From positions 1-45,586 of the IMG/VR virus record IMGVR_UViG_3300025141_000188: a stretch of 45,586 nt of DNA, one strand, 5' to 3'. The notes under the pieces were generated by a model. That model saw nothing but the letters and a program-made list of their open reading frames with translations. It was not told where the DNA came from and searched no databases. A program made the position numbers and the translations under genes. Positions 1,948-40,709 of the stretch are shown piece by piece. The number at the start of each line of letters is the position of its first letter. The stretch's first letter is position 1. The DNA is from a virus.

Positions 1948-2155
1948 CGGCGATTTAAAAAGGTTGTTCAGAATGCATTTAAGAATGTCGGCTTACGGGG
2001 ATTTAAGAACACCGATATTTTTAAGCACGGAGCAGTACGAAAAGATGGATAGGCGTAAATTAATCACAGCGTACAGTACAGGAAAGCACTGTCTATTTGG
2101 GCGAAGAGTTGTTGTTATTGATGACGGGGGTCAGAATGAAGTTAACAAAAGTTGA
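1931..2155 (+). CDS. Hypothetical protein, 74 aa, TTG start
   Basis: I do not recognise this protein. The start is TTG at 1931, supported by a strong purine-rich Shine-Dalgarno (GAGGAGGTGA) inside the 3' end of the primase gene. The product is basic and soluble, with no membrane segment. It overlaps the primase gene upstream and the dUTPase gene downstream (20 bases), which fits a translationally coupled early operon. The non-ATG start makes the call less certain than for its neighbours, but the ribosome site and tiling position favour a real gene. Confidence 0.6.
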   Translation: MELVHNGDLKRLFRMHLRMSAYGDLRTPIFLSTEQYEKMDRRKLITAYSTGKHCLFGRRVVVIDDGGQNEVNKS

Positions 2156-3854
2156 AACAGAAGACGGGAAGAAGTGGCGAATTGATTACAGGCCTACAAA
2201 GGAAGGTGATATTCACATATTGCAGGGTTACAGCGGAGCCGTTGCGCACGTATGTAATCAGCCAGGCTATCACGATCACCTTGAAGCGGTGATGATTGAG
2301 ATTGAGGAGTTTGAGGTATCTAGTCATGAAGTGAAGACATTAGAAATAGATAGCAGCCTTATTTCATCGATATATGAAATACCTCAAGACGTTACACCGC
2401 CAGATCCATACACCGAAGGAAAAGAATTCGAACTAAAAATAAAACCAGGAGAAATTAACGTGACAAACACTAAAATAAATCACAAATGCCCTAAGTGCGA
2501 TTACGACGAGTCAAAAAGCGAATTAAAACCGCTTAAGTATAAGAAATTTAATAATCACTTCACCGGGTGCCCTATTTGTGGGTGTGAGCTTTCGGTTGAG
2601 AAGTTTGAGGAGGATTTTAATTACTCTCTCATATACAACCCTATCTACAACGATATCCTTGCTCATGCAACGATAACTCCAACCAGCAAGCGGGCCGAAT
2701 TCTGGAGTGCCTGCGAGACATACAACAAGGTTTATGATTTTTTGAAATCCAAAGGATTCCAAGGCGATTTTTTGGATTTCGATTTCGGGTCGTCTACTGA
2801 CGGTAAAAAAATAATTATTGATAACAATGTCGAGGATTTTATGCTTTGGGCAAAAGCCGAAGGCATTGATTATAGGGAGATGGATGGCTACAAGGATTAC
2901 ATAAAAAGAGTCAGGAGCAACCCAGAAACCGACGTTGCTGAGACAAAATTCAGCACAGCTAATGGGGAGGTAGTCTGGCCTTCGCCCAACCCAAAAGAAA
3001 CAACCACCTTCAAAATATTTTTCGAGGGTTCTGGCGACAAGGAATACAAGTTATGGGCGAGCCATGATTTCCTCACTGCTGAGGATAGCTATATAAAGAA
3101 AATAATATTTGGAAACTTTGAAGGCGCCGATGGTCTGGAGTGGATGACTTCTGCAGATTCTATGTATTTGGTTATTCATAAGTTTGAGAATTCAATTAGT
3201 GTGTATGAGAACCCGCTCGATAAGGCCATAAGGGAAGCGGATCTTCTTTATAATAAGGCCGTTAGAAGCAGACTGCAGCCAGACGAGGACGGGAATATTA
3301 CATGGACGTCACCATTTATGTTTTCTGACAAGCCAGACCCTTTGGAGATAACCGACCTTAAGTTTGATTGGGTATTCCCAACACCGTCGTCTTCAGAGCC
3401 AGTCAAACCTTCGGTATGCATAGCCCTAGCCCACGAAGACGGCAAGTTTCCTCAGCGTCAGAAAGACGGAGACGCGGGCCTTGATTTGTTTCTGCGTGAC
3501 TGCAAGGGTGAGCCTTCGCCTACGGGCGCGTGGACTATTCGTCCGGGCCATCGTAAAAAATTCCTTGTTGGCGTTAAAACCGAGTTTCCGAAAGACATGG
3601 TTGCTTACATAAAACCTAGATCTGGCCTTGCTGCTAATCACGGCATTGACGTTCTGGCTGGCACTATTGATTCGAATTTCCGTGGCGAGTTATGTGTGTG
3701 CTTAATAAATCACGGGCATCAGTCGTACACGTTCGAGAAAGGCGAGCGTATAGCGCAGATTGTTTTCCATCAGATTGTGCGTGATGTTGTCGAGGTTGAA
3801 TTTCTATCGGATAGTGATCGAGGTGAAAGCGGATTTGGGGAGAGTGGGAAATGA
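2136..3854 (+). CDS. dut: dUTPase with long zinc-finger-containing N-terminal extension
   Basis: The last ~140 residues form a complete trimeric-type dUTP diphosphatase, which hydrolyses dUTP to dUMP and PPi and keeps uracil out of phage DNA. All five motifs are visible: DAGLDL (I), PRSGLA (II), GTIDSNFRGE (III, with Phe for the usual Tyr), GERIAQIVF (IV) and RGESGFGESG (V, with ESG for the usual STG). A typical enzyme is about 150 aa; this protein is 572 aa. The ~430-residue extension carries a CPKC...CPICGC zinc-ribbon-like motif near residues 110-150 and is otherwise unrecognised. ATG at 2136 is chosen because GGGGGT lies just upstream; an in-frame upstream ATG at 2097 lacks this support. 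ATGA overlap with the next gene. Confidence 0.9.
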   Translation: MKLTKVETEDGKKWRIDYRPTKEGDIHILQGYSGAVAHVCNQPGYHDHLEAVMIEIEEFEVSSHEVKTLEIDSSLISSIYEIPQDVTPPDPYTEGKEFELKIKPGEINVTNTKINHKCPKCDYDESKSELKPLKYKKFNNHFTGCPICGCELSVEKFEEDFNYSLIYNPIYNDILAHATITPTSKRAEFWSACETYNKVYDFLKSKGFQGDFLDFDFGSSTDGKKIIIDNNVEDFMLWAKAEGIDYREMDGYKDYIKRVRSNPETDVAETKFSTANGEVVWPSPNPKETTTFKIFFEGSGDKEYKLWASHDFLTAEDSYIKKIIFGNFEGADGLEWMTSADSMYLVIHKFENSISVYENPLDKAIREADLLYNKAVRSRLQPDEDGNITWTSPFMFSDKPDPLEITDLKFDWVFPTPSSSEPVKPSVCIALAHEDGKFPQRQKDGDAGLDLFLRDCKGEPSPTGAWTIRPGHRKKFLVGVKTEFPKDMVAYIKPRSGLAANHGIDVLAGTIDSNFRGELCVCLINHGHQSYTFEKGERIAQIVFHQIVRDVVEVEFLSDSDRGESGFGESGK

Positions 3855-5526: not shown

Positions 5527-5588
5527 CGTCAAATAGTTATTCCTCATTTTTAAACACAAAATAAATTGAAATAATTTACATAAACCTC

Positions 5589-5617
5589 TTGCATTACTGA
5601 AACAGTTTCACTATTAT
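5589..5617 (+). promoter_or_regulatory. Sigma-70-type promoter of the acr-like operon
   Basis: TTGCAT (5589-5594), a 17-base spacer and TATTAT (5612-5617), with the first start codon 32 bases beyond. It is close to the E. coli-type consensus and lies in an AT-rich stretch, as expected of a strong immediate-early promoter. Confidence 0.75.
5598..5610. promoter_or_regulatory. Perfect palindromic operator inside the acr-like promoter
   Basis: TGAAACAGTTTCA is a perfect 6+1+6 inverted repeat lying wholly between the -35 and -10 boxes, where a bound dimer would block RNA polymerase. In known anti-CRISPR operons the Aca HTH protein represses from inverted repeats in the promoter. Here the HTH product of the third gene (6359-6610) is the obvious candidate ligand. 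That link is inference. Confidence 0.7.
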
Positions 5618-5632
5618 ATACCCATACACAAC

Positions 5633-5652
5633 GCAAGAGGAAAACAAAATGT
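5633..5652 (+). repeat. Duplicated ribosome-binding/start segment, copy 1
   Basis: The 20 bases GCAAGAGGAAAACAAAATGT cover the Shine-Dalgarno and ATG of the first gene of the operon. They recur exactly at 5920-5939 over the start of the second gene. Confidence 0.85.
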
Positions 5653-5919: not shown

Positions 5920-5939
5920 GCAAGAGGAAAACAAAATGT
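5920..5939 (+). repeat. Duplicated ribosome-binding/start segment, copy 2
   Basis: Exact repeat of 5633-5652, here over the start of the AcrIF11-like gene. The match suggests that the two genes were joined by duplication or recombination at their translation-start regions and are translated at similar rates. Confidence 0.85.
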
Positions 5940-6346
5940 TCCACACTAGCCCAAACAAAATAACCGAAATAAATAATTTAGGAATTGCTGGCGATTGTTT
6001 GTTTTTTTCTGACAACGTTTATGTCATGACTGAAGCGGAAAGCGTTTATGTTTATGAAGCGGACTTTGATTGTATAAGAGTTTGGCAACTCCACGACGAA
6101 GAAATAATCGAAGAGATAGCAGACAACTTTGGTTGCTCAATCGAAACCGCCGAAGGTCTTTTAGATGGAAGTGAATGTGAATGGGAACAAGAATCATGTG
6201 ACGCCGACATGTCATGGTGGCTACAAGGTAAGCGTGGCGAATGTGCAAAAAAAATGGGTTTCGACGGGTGCGAAGATGAAGACGAGCAAGGAACTGTTTA
6301 CATTATCCCGATGAGCGGACGCGAAAACGAGTTAAACTTAATATAA
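5936..6346 (+). CDS. AcrIF11-like ADP-ribosyltransferase, putative type I-F anti-CRISPR
   Basis: 136 aa, acidic. It shows the layout of the AcrIF11 family as I recall it: N-terminal FHTSP (residues 2-6), then I-N-x-x-G, then LFFSDNVYVMT (22-32), a Cys-x-x-x-TAE-x-L segment (66-75), KKMGFDG (105-111) and C-terminal DEQGT-x-Y-I-I-P-M (116-126). Characterised AcrIF11 is an ADP-ribosyltransferase that uses NAD to modify Cas8f of the type I-F Cascade and blocks target DNA binding. The DEQGT acidic pair (Asp116/Glu117) lies where the family's catalytic acid is expected. Context agrees: strong own promoter, short operon, HTH gene immediately downstream, terminator. It could instead modify another host protein. 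Confidence 0.78.
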   Translation: MFHTSPNKITEINNLGIAGDCLFFSDNVYVMTEAESVYVYEADFDCIRVWQLHDEEIIEEIADNFGCSIETAEGLLDGSECEWEQESCDADMSWWLQGKRGECAKKMGFDGCEDEDEQGTVYIIPMSGRENELNLI

Positions 6347-6358
6347 GGAGCAGAACGC

Positions 6359-6610
6359 ATGACACCTTCACAAATATGCAAAGAGCACGGGATAACGCTT
6401 GTTAAGTTATCCCGCTCGCTCGGATATAAAGAAAACGGGCAGCCGGTTGTATCTGAAAGAACGCTAATCAACTGGCACAAAAACAAGCCTTTACTATTTA
6501 AAGCTGTAGTTCTAGGCCAGTCAAAACTTATAAATAGTTCCAAACAACCAAAACCCCTGCCGGCTTGCCAACCTCGGATTTCAGTACAAAAACCACACAA
6601 TCCCGATTAG
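6359..6610 (+). CDS. Small HTH protein, candidate anti-CRISPR-associated (Aca) repressor
   Basis: 83 aa. Residues about 4-50 form a helix-turn-helix of the phage regulator type: ICKEHGITLVKLSRSLGY, then SERTLINWHKNKPLLFKAVV, where the second helix would be the recognition helix. The Pro-rich tail is probably disordered. It starts 12 bases after the AcrIF11-like gene, with AAGGAG upstream, and ends inside the terminator hairpin. A small HTH gene directly downstream of an acr gene is the defining context of aca genes. I cannot match it to a numbered Aca family. It may bind the palindrome at 5598-5610 and switch the operon off after the initial burst. Confidence 0.8.
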   Translation: MTPSQICKEHGITLVKLSRSLGYKENGQPVVSERTLINWHKNKPLLFKAVVLGQSKLINSSKQPKPLPACQPRISVQKPHNPD

Positions 6611-6626
6611 CCTCGGGATTTTTTTT
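6599..6626 (+). terminator. Strong rho-independent terminator
   Basis: An 8-bp perfect stem (AATCCCGA with TCGGGATT), a 6-base loop and eight T residues. The stop codon of the HTH gene lies in the loop. It cleanly isolates the acr-like operon from the late region. Confidence 0.92.
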
Positions 6627-7005
6627 AAAAAAAGTGGCGCGTATTTCATTTGTTGACTTAGAACTTATGCTAGCCCTCACTAACCTTTTTTTTGATCAGT
6701 ACGAAATATAGCCAGCATAAAAAGCAATCTATTTTATCTTAAATTCCCACCCTGACAGTGGAGTGGTTCAGAAAGGTGGTGCAGCTGAAGACCCCATTCC
6801 CTTTATATAATAACTACTATCACTAGTATAATATTATTATAAAATAAATATATTATATTGTATAAATAGTATACTGTATAAATAATACGCGTTATATTTT
6901 ATAAAAGTTAGAGATAGCCCGATCACTAGTGCACTCTGGTGCAGTTATTCGGTGTATAAAAAATGATCTGCAAATAGGGGGTTGACGCGGTTGCCTAGGG
7001 ATGCC
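6627..7005. other. Non-coding AT-rich region upstream of the late genes
   Basis: About 380 bases without a supported gene. Bases 6801-6907 are almost pure A/T, with a direct repeat TGTATAAATA (6859-6868 and 6875-6884) and a repeated ATCACTAGT (6819-6827 and 6922-6930). A small inverted repeat TGCAC-TCTG-GTGCA lies at 6930-6943. The composition suits a DNA-unwinding element (replication origin) or a late promoter region. No well-spaced -35/-10 pair stands out; TTGACT at 6653 has no partner. Function is inference. Confidence 0.6.
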
Positions 7006-25946: not shown

Positions 25947-27982
25947 TGGCAAAGATTACCGATTATACAGACCTAAATGACGGCACCGAGTTTGATGTTG
26001 ACCTTGGCGCATCTACGGTTGAGCTGAATATTGCTGGCAACCTATCTAATGACGGGGTGACCGGGCAAGCTTTATTCTCAGCGCTTGAGGATCTGTGGAA
26101 GACCGGCGCGACACACAACCGGTACAGATGGCCGTTCGCGCAGGCTGTTGGTGAGCTCGCGACATCTTTAGAGATGCAAGGCGGGTGGGTTAATGCGGAC
26201 GCTCAGACGTTAACACTTATTAGAGATTCCGGGCTTCGATTTAGGTCTGGATATGGTGCGGGCGCAACAGTAACAGATGAATGGTGTTGCTTGGTTCAGT
26301 CCGGCGATTTTGCGCTGGCAAGCACTCAGCCATATGTATTACTTGACACCGATACGGCTCCGACGAACCTGAACTTTACTGGCGTATTTAACGAGCTTGT
26401 TAAGACCTTCGATAGCGGAGGTGATGACGATCGCGGCAGCATGAAGATCTACGCGCGCGAAGAGGGGTATACCTACGGGTATTACAATCTCACCGTCGAG
26501 CAAGAGCTAAGTTCAATATTGCCTGTTGCCTACCTTGTTCCGATGTCAACAGAGGCAGATAGCAACTGGAACACCACCGACGCAAATGTCGCCGCTGACG
26601 CCCCATACACCGGAATGACATGCTACACCACAATAAATGGCACAGGTTTTGCTGCTGCTTCTGCCAAATCATATGTGCTCGACGAGGTAGGTCAGGACGG
26701 AGCAGGCCGCTGGTTTATATGCACATCTGCAGGAACTCTTGACGCTGCAGGAGTTGCCGACTACACAAACAACGGTGGAACAGGAACGTTCGGAGCCTAT
26801 TCTGGTGAGCGTAATATCGACGGGTCTTATTATGCCTACAACAAATTTATTGACGGCAATAGCGGAACTAAAGGTCAGGTCTGGGAATATCATCAATACC
26901 AGCTGCGGCAGACAGGCCATATAGATCAAAACCCAGATATAACACAGCGAGGAGATACAGCAGAGGCGCTGCTAGAGTGGATAGGAACGACACTAAAAAC
27001 TGAGACCGGTGTTTATGTTGATAACTTCCTGCCGGCTGAAGGCCCTGAATACATTTTTACTGATGTTAATGGCGTAGAGAGAACGATAGCTGACACTGTA
27101 ATAGTTAGCGCGCCAAATCTTATCGACGATACTAGAGTTAGATTATACAACGTTACAGCTGCGTCAGAAATGGAAAACACCACAGTCTCCGGTGGTAGTG
27201 GTTACTCGATAACTCTTGAGCCTGGTATTGATTACACTATCGGCGATAGTATTGTTTTACTTGCTGCGTACCAACAAGGCGGCACCGCAAAAAGAATATT
27301 TCGTGGAACCGCAGTAATGTCCACAGCTGACGTGACTTTTACTGACTCCCAGTCAGACTGGGATAACCCAGGTCCAAATACTTTAGGTATTGATGGCGAC
27401 ACCGTAGATGAATGTGAAACTGACTATGTTGAGGTTCAGGTCGAGGTTGATGACGCCGATGACTCGACCACAAAAGCCAGGGTTGCGGCGTTTATTGTTG
27501 ACGCGATGCAGACCGAAGAGGGCATTAGGAATTGGGTAAGCCTCGACGGCGAGCCTGTAATTGTTTACACAACGAACTCCGCTGTCTCAATCCGCACTGC
27601 AGTTGCATCGGTTGAGGTGATTAACACTAAATCCCTCAGCAAGCTGGTTGTTGATGATTCCTTTGAATTCGATTGGGATGACGGCCTATATCATGTCGAT
27701 GCGATATTAGGCTCTTCTATTGTCTGGATTGCGCCTGATAAAGTTTTACTCGAGGAGACGGGCGTCTCAGGTTTAACGCCAGAGGAAAGCGCAGACCTTG
27801 CAGCTATTGGAACGGTTCAGGATGATGTCGAACTAATCGTTCAAGATCGAGGGCTTGATGCATCTAACCCGAAAACAATCACAGAAAACACCGAGGGCAG
27901 CTCTTACGACGAGACGTTTGCATCGGTGACTAAGGAGGTGAGACGAAGTGGCGCGACAACCACCATCACGAGGACGGCCTGA
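25946..27982 (+). CDS. Putative virion structural protein, 678 aa
   Basis: Unrecognised at family level. Its Thr/Ser/Asp/Gly-rich, beta-rich composition and many aromatic residues fit a tail-surface protein. The N-terminus DYTDLNDGTEFDVDLGASTVELN reads as a beta layer, and the C-terminal ~60 residues (EESADLAAIGTVQDDVE onward) suggest a short helical stalk. It is joined to the preceding adhesin-like gene by a one-base overlap, so the two products may form one complex. Its last 35 bases overlap the PDR-repeat gene. Confidence 0.75.
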   Translation: MAKITDYTDLNDGTEFDVDLGASTVELNIAGNLSNDGVTGQALFSALEDLWKTGATHNRYRWPFAQAVGELATSLEMQGGWVNADAQTLTLIRDSGLRFRSGYGAGATVTDEWCCLVQSGDFALASTQPYVLLDTDTAPTNLNFTGVFNELVKTFDSGGDDDRGSMKIYAREEGYTYGYYNLTVEQELSSILPVAYLVPMSTEADSNWNTTDANVAADAPYTGMTCYTTINGTGFAAASAKSYVLDEVGQDGAGRWFICTSAGTLDAAGVADYTNNGGTGTFGAYSGERNIDGSYYAYNKFIDGNSGTKGQVWEYHQYQLRQTGHIDQNPDITQRGDTAEALLEWIGTTLKTETGVYVDNFLPAEGPEYIFTDVNGVERTIADTVIVSAPNLIDDTRVRLYNVTAASEMENTTVSGGSGYSITLEPGIDYTIGDSIVLLAAYQQGGTAKRIFRGTAVMSTADVTFTDSQSDWDNPGPNTLGIDGDTVDECETDYVEVQVEVDDADDSTTKARVAAFIVDAMQTEEGIRNWVSLDGEPVIVYTTNSAVSIRTAVASVEVINTKSLSKLVVDDSFEFDWDDGLYHVDAILGSSIVWIAPDKVLLEETGVSGLTPEESADLAAIGTVQDDVELIVQDRGLDASNPKTITENTEGSSYDETFASVTKEVRRSGATTTITRTA

Positions 27983-28373
27983 TCGAGAACGTCCAGATAG
28001 ACCAGATAGACCAGATAGACCAGATAGACCAGATAGACCAGATAGACCAGATAGACCAGATAGGCCAGATAGGCCAGATAGGCCAGATAGGCCAGATAGG
28101 CCAGACAACTCTGAGAATGACAGACACCCAGGCAACAGGCCTCGAAGAGATCCCCGGTCCAGGCCTGCGGATAAAGATGACCCTGGCGGTGAGACAATAA
28201 CGGTAAATGTGTATCGCAATAACATCCTAGAATATTCTCGCCAGTGCGTGGTTACATCAACGAACGGGCAGCGGCGATACCGTACTGATGATAACGACGA
28301 GACCAGGGTGCCGAGGAACGCAACACCTGTAGATATTGCCGCAAGGCTCTTAAGAGGCAAAGGTAACAGATGA
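27948..28373 (+). CDS. PDR tandem-repeat protein
   Basis: 141 aa. GTG start with an ideal Shine-Dalgarno (AAGGAGGTGA). Residues about 16-52 are 12 uninterrupted Pro-Asp-Arg triplets, encoded by the 9-base array at 27993-28106. This charge-balanced, extended and probably disordered rod is flanked by further Arg/Pro/Asp-rich sequence. The C-terminal ~50 residues (GETITVNVYRNNILEYSRQCVV to ARLLRGKG) look like a small folded beta domain. Its setting among adhesin-like genes suggests a flexible linker or fibre. Repeat number could vary without breaking the frame. It is linked to the next gene by an ATGA overlap. Confidence 0.85.
   Translation: MARQPPSRGRPDRERPDRPDRPDRPDRPDRPDRPDRPDRPDRPDRPDRPDRPDNSENDRHPGNRPRRDPRSRPADKDDPGGETITVNVYRNNILEYSRQCVVTSTNGQRRYRTDDNDETRVPRNATPVDIAARLLRGKGNR
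27993..28106 (+). repeat. 9-base tandem array, 12 full copies
   Basis: Seven copies of CCAGATAGA (27993-28055) are followed by five of CCAGATAGG (28056-28100) and a partial unit. The single A-to-G switch divides the array into two blocks, which implies separate expansion of two variant units. Each unit encodes Pro-Asp-Arg. Confidence 0.97.
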
Positions 28374-40211: not shown

Positions 40212-40448
40212 TTAAATAATTCCAAACCCTTGATAGTAAAGCTTAACTCCAGCCTTCTCGATAACAGTCTCAAGATCCTCATCTAGGAACTTAGCGATAG
40301 AAACAGCTTCCTTTAATTGTAGCCTTCTATCACCATTCAAAATGTTAGTTACGGCGCTAGGGTCTAGCTTCATATGTTTGCTTAAGTCTCTTTGTGACTT
40401 TCTCTGGTCTCTCAGCTTATCAACAAACCATTTTTTATCTACTGACAT
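40212..40448 (-). CDS. Cro/CI-like HTH repressor
   Basis: 78 aa from ATG 40448, with AGGTGA upstream; a GTG at 40457 would sit on that ribosome site. XRE-type helix-turn-helix: RKSQRDLSKHMKLDPSAVTNILNG spans the two recognition helices, followed by the usual EAVSIAKFLDEDLETVIEKAG. There is no C-terminal dimerisation/cleavage domain as in lambda CI, so it resembles Cro or a short repressor. It lies between the leftward and rightward promoters and probably controls both, and itself. No integrase is present, so it may time early genes rather than maintain lysogeny. Confidence 0.88.
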   Translation of the reverse strand: MSVDKKWFVDKLRDQRKSQRDLSKHMKLDPSAVTNILNGDRRLQLKEAVSIAKFLDEDLETVIEKAGVKLYYQGFGII

Positions 40449-40470
40449 AATGCTCACCTAAAAATAAATA

Positions 40471-40499
40471 TTGACGTTCTCACTAGTGGGAACTATAAT
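40471..40499 (+). promoter_or_regulatory. Rightward early promoter
   Basis: TTGACG (40471-40476), a 17-base spacer and a perfect TATAAT (40494-40499). It is the strongest promoter in the window by eye and starts the replication operon. Confidence 0.88.
40476..40493. promoter_or_regulatory. Palindromic operator in rightward promoter
   Basis: GTTCTCACTAGTGGGAAC is an 18-base inverted repeat with one mismatch per arm, centred on ACTAGT. It fills the space between -35 and -10, so a bound dimer would exclude RNA polymerase. Confidence 0.82.
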
Positions 40500-40529
40500 T
40501 TGCCTAAACCACAACAAAGTGAGGCTATC

Positions 40530-40709
40530 ATGCCAGGTATAAAAAAAGATTTACAGCCAAAAGTTCTAGAAGAGTTGCGCCGTCACGGCAATGTAAGCAG
40601 GGCCGCAAGAGCTTGCGGAATCAATCGTAGAACAATTAGCAAGTGGGCTAATAACGACAACGTTTTCAAAGCTGCTTTTGATGCAGCTAAATCTGAGGGA
40701 AAAAAGTAA
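40530..40709 (+). CDS. Small HTH protein, 59 aa
   Basis: ATG 40530 with GTGAGG upstream; a TTG at 40500 overlaps the -10 box and was not used. The compact helix-turn-helix GNVSRAARACGINRRTISKW resembles the DNA-binding module of small terminase or homeodomain-like regulators. As the first gene under the rightward promoter it is in the cro position, though its HTH is of a different type from the divergent repressor. It may act as a second early regulator. Confidence 0.78.
   Translation: MPGIKKDLQPKVLEELRRHGNVSRAARACGINRRTISKWANNDNVFKAAFDAAKSEGKK

Follow-up and report, generated by a model that had tools for sequence, protein, structure and literature searches.

The DNA analysed here, called the window throughout, is the uncultivated virus record IMGVR_UViG_3300025141_000188 (45,586 bases). 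Its DNA had no near match among deposited phages, and the same operon, encoding identical proteins, is present in a near-identical sister contig, IMGVR_UViG_3300002514_000143. The operon has one promoter and one terminator, between which lie, in order, an 80-aa ORF, acrIF11, and the gene for a small HTH protein (Table 1). The acrIF11 stop codon and the ATG of the HTH gene are separated by 12 nt. An earlier note had placed an HTH protein in the Aca position at exactly 6359-6610, and this is where we found it, sharing an operon with a genuine acr gene and lying downstream of that gene, as is typical of the Aca class.

Table 1. Genes and predicted regulatory features of the operon (positions in the window).
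Feature	Position	Strand	Remarks
O1, putative upstream operator copy TGAAATAATTTAC	5567..5579	+	31 bp (3 turns) 5' of O2; less perfect than O2
-35 hexamer TTGCAT	5589..5594	+	3/6 consensus matches; aligned with -35 of homologous operons
O2, putative operator TGAAACAGTTTCA	5598..5610	+	within -35/-10 spacer
-10 hexamer TATTAT	5612..5617	+	17-nt spacer
First cargo gene, 80 aa	5649..5891	+	no significant family match
acrIF11 homologue, 136 aa, ADP-ribosyltransferase-type anti-CRISPR	5936..6346	+	NCBIfam and PDB matches
HTH (putative Aca-type) regulator gene	6359..6610	+	83 aa, pI 10.1; likely recognition helix, residues 33-42
Intrinsic terminator	6599..6628	+	stem 6599-6620 plus T run; overlaps HTH stop codon, ends operon

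The gene directly upstream of the HTH gene is a member of AcrIF11 by a curated model, the NCBIfam equivalog NF052490 (E 8e-34; 117.6 bits against a cut-off of 50), and its product matched PDB 8dwq (E 2.7e-15). As in AcrIF11 of known structure (PDB 8dwq, 6kyf), the NAD-binding D/E pair is kept: D116/E117 align with the NAD-site residues D146/E147 of AcrIF11Pae2 (PDB 8dwq), which are important in NAD binding (PMC12421852). The 80-aa protein encoded by the first gene is, by association, a candidate anti-defence protein. The terminator was scored at -10.8 kcal/mol (z -3.5). A 19-nt leader, GCAAGAGGAAAACAAAATG, is present in identical copies at 5633-5651 and 5920-5938, ahead of the cargo genes at 5649 and 5936, and could be a short homology aiding cargo exchange or a leader duplication. 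Elsewhere in the window, we observed an ORF containing an extended Pro-Asp-Arg repeat (PDRPDRPD...; 27948-28373) and a 585-aa ORF (2097-3854) with a dUTPase-like C-terminal part apparently fused to an N-terminal part of no assigned family. At 40212-40709 lies a divergent CI/Cro-type pair, made up of an HTH_3 protein (40212-40457, minus strand) and a 59-aa PHROG 409-like HTH ORF (40530-40709, plus strand), with the palindrome GTTCTCACTAGTGGGAAC (40476-40493) between TTGACG and TATAAT; this pair resembles a switch for lysogeny or early expression.

The HTH protein of the operon, which contains SERTLINWHKNKPLLFKAVV, had no matches in Pfam or NCBIfam, and PDB sequence and profile searches returned chance matches only. 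As the earlier note had seen, its size, gene order, and HTH agree with what is expected of Aca; members of that class have an HTH domain of about 60-80 aa. The operator in the core promoter and the acr gene directly upstream fit as well. An AF2 model built from 18 sequences showed a compact fold (mean pLDDT 82.9) with helices at residues 3-9, 14-20, 33-42, and 44-60, and on the basis of these predicted boundaries residues 33-42 (SERTLINWHK) are likely the recognition helix. The turn of the window protein has eight inserted residues, YKENGQPV, which the homologue at locus L244 shares and which take another form in L254 and L256. Assignment to the HTH class is backed by weak HTH_3 and MerR matches among homologues. 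PHROG 409, annotated as "transcriptional regulator", matched the window protein weakly (0.023) and all 22 tested family members (best 4.8e-8), though this is a broad group described without operator, cargo, or role. Structural searches with the model (Foldseek and VIA-align) gave ribosomal L20-type helical bundles as top matches, none with E <0.001, and were deemed uninformative because the domain is small and helical; AcrIIA1 was among the matches with a Z of only 3.6.

The promoter palindrome that the earlier note had seen at 5589-5617 was recovered as the O2 inverted repeat between the -35 and -10 hexamers, a core-promoter position typical of the Aca class. The -35 is weak, and the promoter was missed by a strict consensus promoter scan. 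The sequence TGAAACNGTTTCA occurs once in the window, where the next nearest site has two mismatches. O2 had a leave-one-out motif score of 16.0 bits, a value reached by none of 40 shuffles, and its outer bases are G/C, matching the Arg in the recognition helix.

Homologues of the HTH protein were drawn from IMG/VR and from isolated Vibrio, Pseudoalteromonas, Marinomonas, Plesiomonas, and Oceanospirillum phages. The family HMM gave 202 hits in aquatic phages, comprising 131 loci non-redundant by upstream DNA, with the consensus TPSxQxKxxGLKSL...SxQTLxNWHKNKPxLFxxVxxG. Searching a plasmid collection yielded no member, scanning bacterial genome contigs with a strict family pattern confirmed none, and a literature search, with the supplements of Aca papers outside its coverage, found no paper describing the family.

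We counted a locus as operator-positive when the DNA upstream of its HTH gene had TNAAAYWRTTTNA, with at most one mismatch, and then a -10 box. The palindrome was present in the core promoter at 59 of 131 non-redundant loci, compared with 3 of 125 downstream control stretches of equal size and 1 of 131 antisense controls. When only loci from the protein search were considered, it was present at 45 of 115, compared with 2 of 112 downstream controls and 1 antisense control. Leave-one-out motif scores, with near relatives removed, were 12.3 bits upstream versus 6.9 bits downstream (Wilcoxon 7e-7). We note that the p-values reported here are only indicative, as the loci are partly related rather than fully independent, which inflates significance. 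Under the strict rule, 72 of the 131 loci had no recognisable operator; some of these have a diverged recognition helix (PxRTLKDW) and probably use other operators. One sub-clade (L014, L016, L017, L198-L200) has the helix PxRTL(K/R/Q)DW and is without the common operator; in its place, the spacer of PVA1-type promoters contains GGCGNNNNNCGCC-like palindromes.

The spacing between O1 and O2 was quantised, with distances of 29-32 bp (n=40) or 40-41 bp (n=14) and a single exception, which correspond to three or four helical turns. A second copy was usually present, at a distance of 30 bp (n=28), 31 bp (n=10), 40 bp (n=4), or 41 bp (n=10), and only rarely at others. The 31-bp spacing of the window recurs in Vibrio phages (L185-L187, L189, L191-L193) that have no DNA similarity to it. 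Several homologous operons have near-consensus -35 and -10 hexamers.

As a reciprocal test, we ran two scans of all IMG/VR contigs with bare promoter/operator DNA as the query. These scans gave 142 sites. At about 22 of them, an HTH-family gene lay in the 2.2 kb downstream; the upstream controls gave none, save one case in which a duplicate of the promoter sits behind the same gene. Fifteen contigs with both operator and HTH gene were new relative to the protein search up to then. The majority of the 142 sites had no HTH gene, and these were mainly recurrences of a small number of unrelated promoters; by itself, the operator pattern therefore lacks specificity. A scan with the Arg-type operator gave five sites, with an HTH gene at one (the sister contig operon) and none at the other four.

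The recognition helix and the operator varied together across loci. Just before TL, the helix has Gln in 52 operator-bearing loci and Arg in seven, namely the window, five Vibrio phages, and L269, which span three lineages with at most 48% identity. An operator with G at position 2 and C at position 12 accompanies Arg in all seven loci and Gln in none of the 52 (Fisher 2.9e-9 each), and helix Arg versus Gln tracks operator G versus A/C/T in 59 of 59 loci. Four more Arg loci, examined afterwards in a looser search, also have G..C. Arg with guanine and Gln with adenine is a classic recognition pattern. This covariation is the strongest indirect sign that the HTH protein may read TNAAAYWRTTTNA-type DNA, and the Arg/Gln-operator rule would allow DNA recognition by an Aca-type protein to be tested quickly and directly.

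Homologues are found mostly behind small, differing genes. Between the operator and the HTH gene, 57 operons contained 96 cargo ORFs in 88 clusters, 81 of them singletons, and in 49 of 57 operons the last cargo ORF abuts or overlaps the HTH start, as occurs in acrIF1-aca1. Most cargo ORFs had no annotation. Those that did were AcrIF11 (window), an ArdC N-domain (L085, L316), Lar restriction alleviation (L156, L244, L215), a PHROG DNA methyltransferase (sequence in L293), DUF1391 (L036), a queuine/DpdA-type protein (L231), and one weak RalR match. Such operons account for 1.6% of the sequence of 50 contigs that carry them, and four of the seven Lar matches in these contigs fell inside operons (p 2e-6; three of six without the weakest, p 8e-5), as did two of two ArdC-N matches (p 2.5e-4). 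One of four DpdA-like genes was inside an operon and one was directly ahead of an HTH gene. The queuine tRNA-ribosyltransferase genes (DpdA-like, PHROG 887) of L003 (604-1344) and L231 (1734-2483) lie immediately 5' of the HTH gene and are candidates for DNA hypermodification against restriction. One ORF of L026 (3713-4168) joins a GIY-YIG nuclease domain (PF01541, E 7e-8) to a C-terminal HTH-family domain.

Two of the 50 contigs carry AcrIF11, one of them inside the HTH operon, and only the window and its sister contig have AcrIF11 in such an operon. The enrichment of homologues beside acr genes on which the earlier note had staked its reading was therefore not found in the neighbourhood survey. 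The note had suggested the family as a marker for further acr genes; because the cargo is enriched for anti-restriction genes, we take it to mark anti-defence genes more broadly, not just acr genes. We rejected an HTH specific to AcrIF11, as six other AcrIF11 loci have no such HTH gene directly adjoining. Other AcrIF11 homologues are followed by ribbon-helix-helix-like ORFs of 46-60 aa (L008 4148-4288, L011 5420-5602, L012 1892-2071), which are possible non-HTH regulators of acr operons.

The family resembles Aca1-Aca12 in being a small basic HTH protein encoded by the last gene of an acr operon, with an inverted repeat in the promoter and a second repeat. In tested Aca promoters, an inverted repeat (IR1) occupies the core promoter and is often joined by another (IR2) close by (PMC9410906). 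Aca families are likewise widespread beyond known acr genes, with a known acr nearby in about 15% of cases and in 3% for Aca2 (PMC9410906). The present family differs in having its own operator, TNAAAYWRTTTNA, in tandem copies phased by 30-31 or 40-41 bp, in its recognised cargo being mostly anti-restriction, and in being found so far in aquatic phages and viral contigs and not in the plasmid collection. Genes for acr, anti-restriction, and methyltransferase functions have been described near aca genes (Pinilla-Redondo 2020, PMC7648647), whereas the present anti-restriction genes lie inside a probably autoregulated operon, between the putative operator and the regulator. AcrIF11 is already known beside Aca1 and Aca4-7 (PMC9765179); the window regulator is neither Aca1 nor Aca2. 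Aca1 (JBD30 gp36) gave no BLASTP match to the family and an hhalign probability of 13%, and Aca2 (ZF40 gp30) gave an hhalign probability of 0.3%. The published Pfam labels of Aca3-Aca13 and the 36 unnamed AcaFinder families (HTH_3, HTH_23, HTH_28, and others) had no significant match to the window protein. The earlier note's impression of a mismatch with known Aca sequences, which concerned the helix region, agrees with these results for Aca1 and Aca2. On direct comparison with Aca1 and Aca2, we read the family as a putative Aca-type family without a number, whose cargo extends to other anti-defence genes.

Together, we consider it highly likely that the HTH gene of the window encodes an Aca-type autorepressor. 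Because of the operator conservation, the phasing, the reciprocal scan, and the helix-operator covariation, the protein very probably binds the operators of its own operon and autorepresses, as Aca proteins do. We infer a mechanism in which the basic four-helix protein would be made from the last gene of the short operon and, as dimers, would occupy the O2 palindrome TGAAACAGTTTCA in the -35/-10 spacer, blocking RNA polymerase, as well as O1, three turns upstream on the same helix face. On phage entry, a burst of AcrIF11 would be produced, with expected ADP-ribosylation of the type I-F Cascade; the HTH protein would then build up and the promoter would be shut.

Very unlikely, in our assessment, is a general phage regulator (Cro-like or an early/middle switch) that sits beside acrIF11 by chance and has its targets elsewhere in the genome. 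The PHROG 409 matches of all 22 tested members fit such a role, as do the many homologues without a known acr alongside and the second PHROG 409-like ORF, at 40530-40709 in a CI/Cro-type position. However, the operator is found at only one place in the window, the HTH operon's promoter, and homologue operators lie in the promoters of their own operons, where the cargo changes and the pair persists. If anything even less probable is an activator of the operon, for instance with a MerR-like helix recruiting polymerase at O1. The weak -35, the location of O1 upstream of it, and weak Pfam MerR matches in 10 of 22 members point that way, but O2 occupies the -35/-10 spacer in recognised operons, a location shared with the sites of tested Aca repressors (PMC9410906), and the near-consensus promoters of several homologous operons also speak against an activator. 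An antitoxin-like autoregulator with the upstream small gene as its toxin is highly implausible: toxin-antitoxin operons likewise contain a small HTH gene that controls its own expression via a palindrome, and one cargo had the weak RalR match, but the upstream gene in the window is a recognised anti-CRISPR and the cargo comprises 88 unrelated clusters whose recognised members are for the most part anti-restriction proteins rather than toxins.

Under the preferred reading of an Aca-type autorepressor, the gene most likely belongs to a large, previously un-named family with the same role beside many different candidate anti-defence genes. Many other aquatic phages carry this regulator-operator pair with small genes that are interchanged, among them several known for anti-restriction; the pair thus probably serves as a portable switch for anti-defence cassettes. 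Whether this amounts to a modular counter-defence system of aquatic phages, in which dozens of unrelated small anti-defence genes are exchanged around one regulator-operator pair and most of the unannotated cargo encodes immunity inhibitors, we judge to be about evenly balanced. If so, its cargo would include AcrIF11, Lar, ArdC-N, a DpdA-like protein, a methyltransferase, more than 75 unannotated clusters, and the 80-aa ORF of the window, and new immunity inhibitors could be mined by combining the operator DNA pattern with the regulator gene. Genes for Aca proteins are the main handle for new anti-CRISPR discovery, and most known Aca proteins come from Proteobacteria or Firmicutes hosts or gut phages. 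The present family would be an aquatic-phage marker with a defined operator, and would lead to about 88 mostly unannotated gene clusters that are candidates for acting against CRISPR, restriction, and other immunity.
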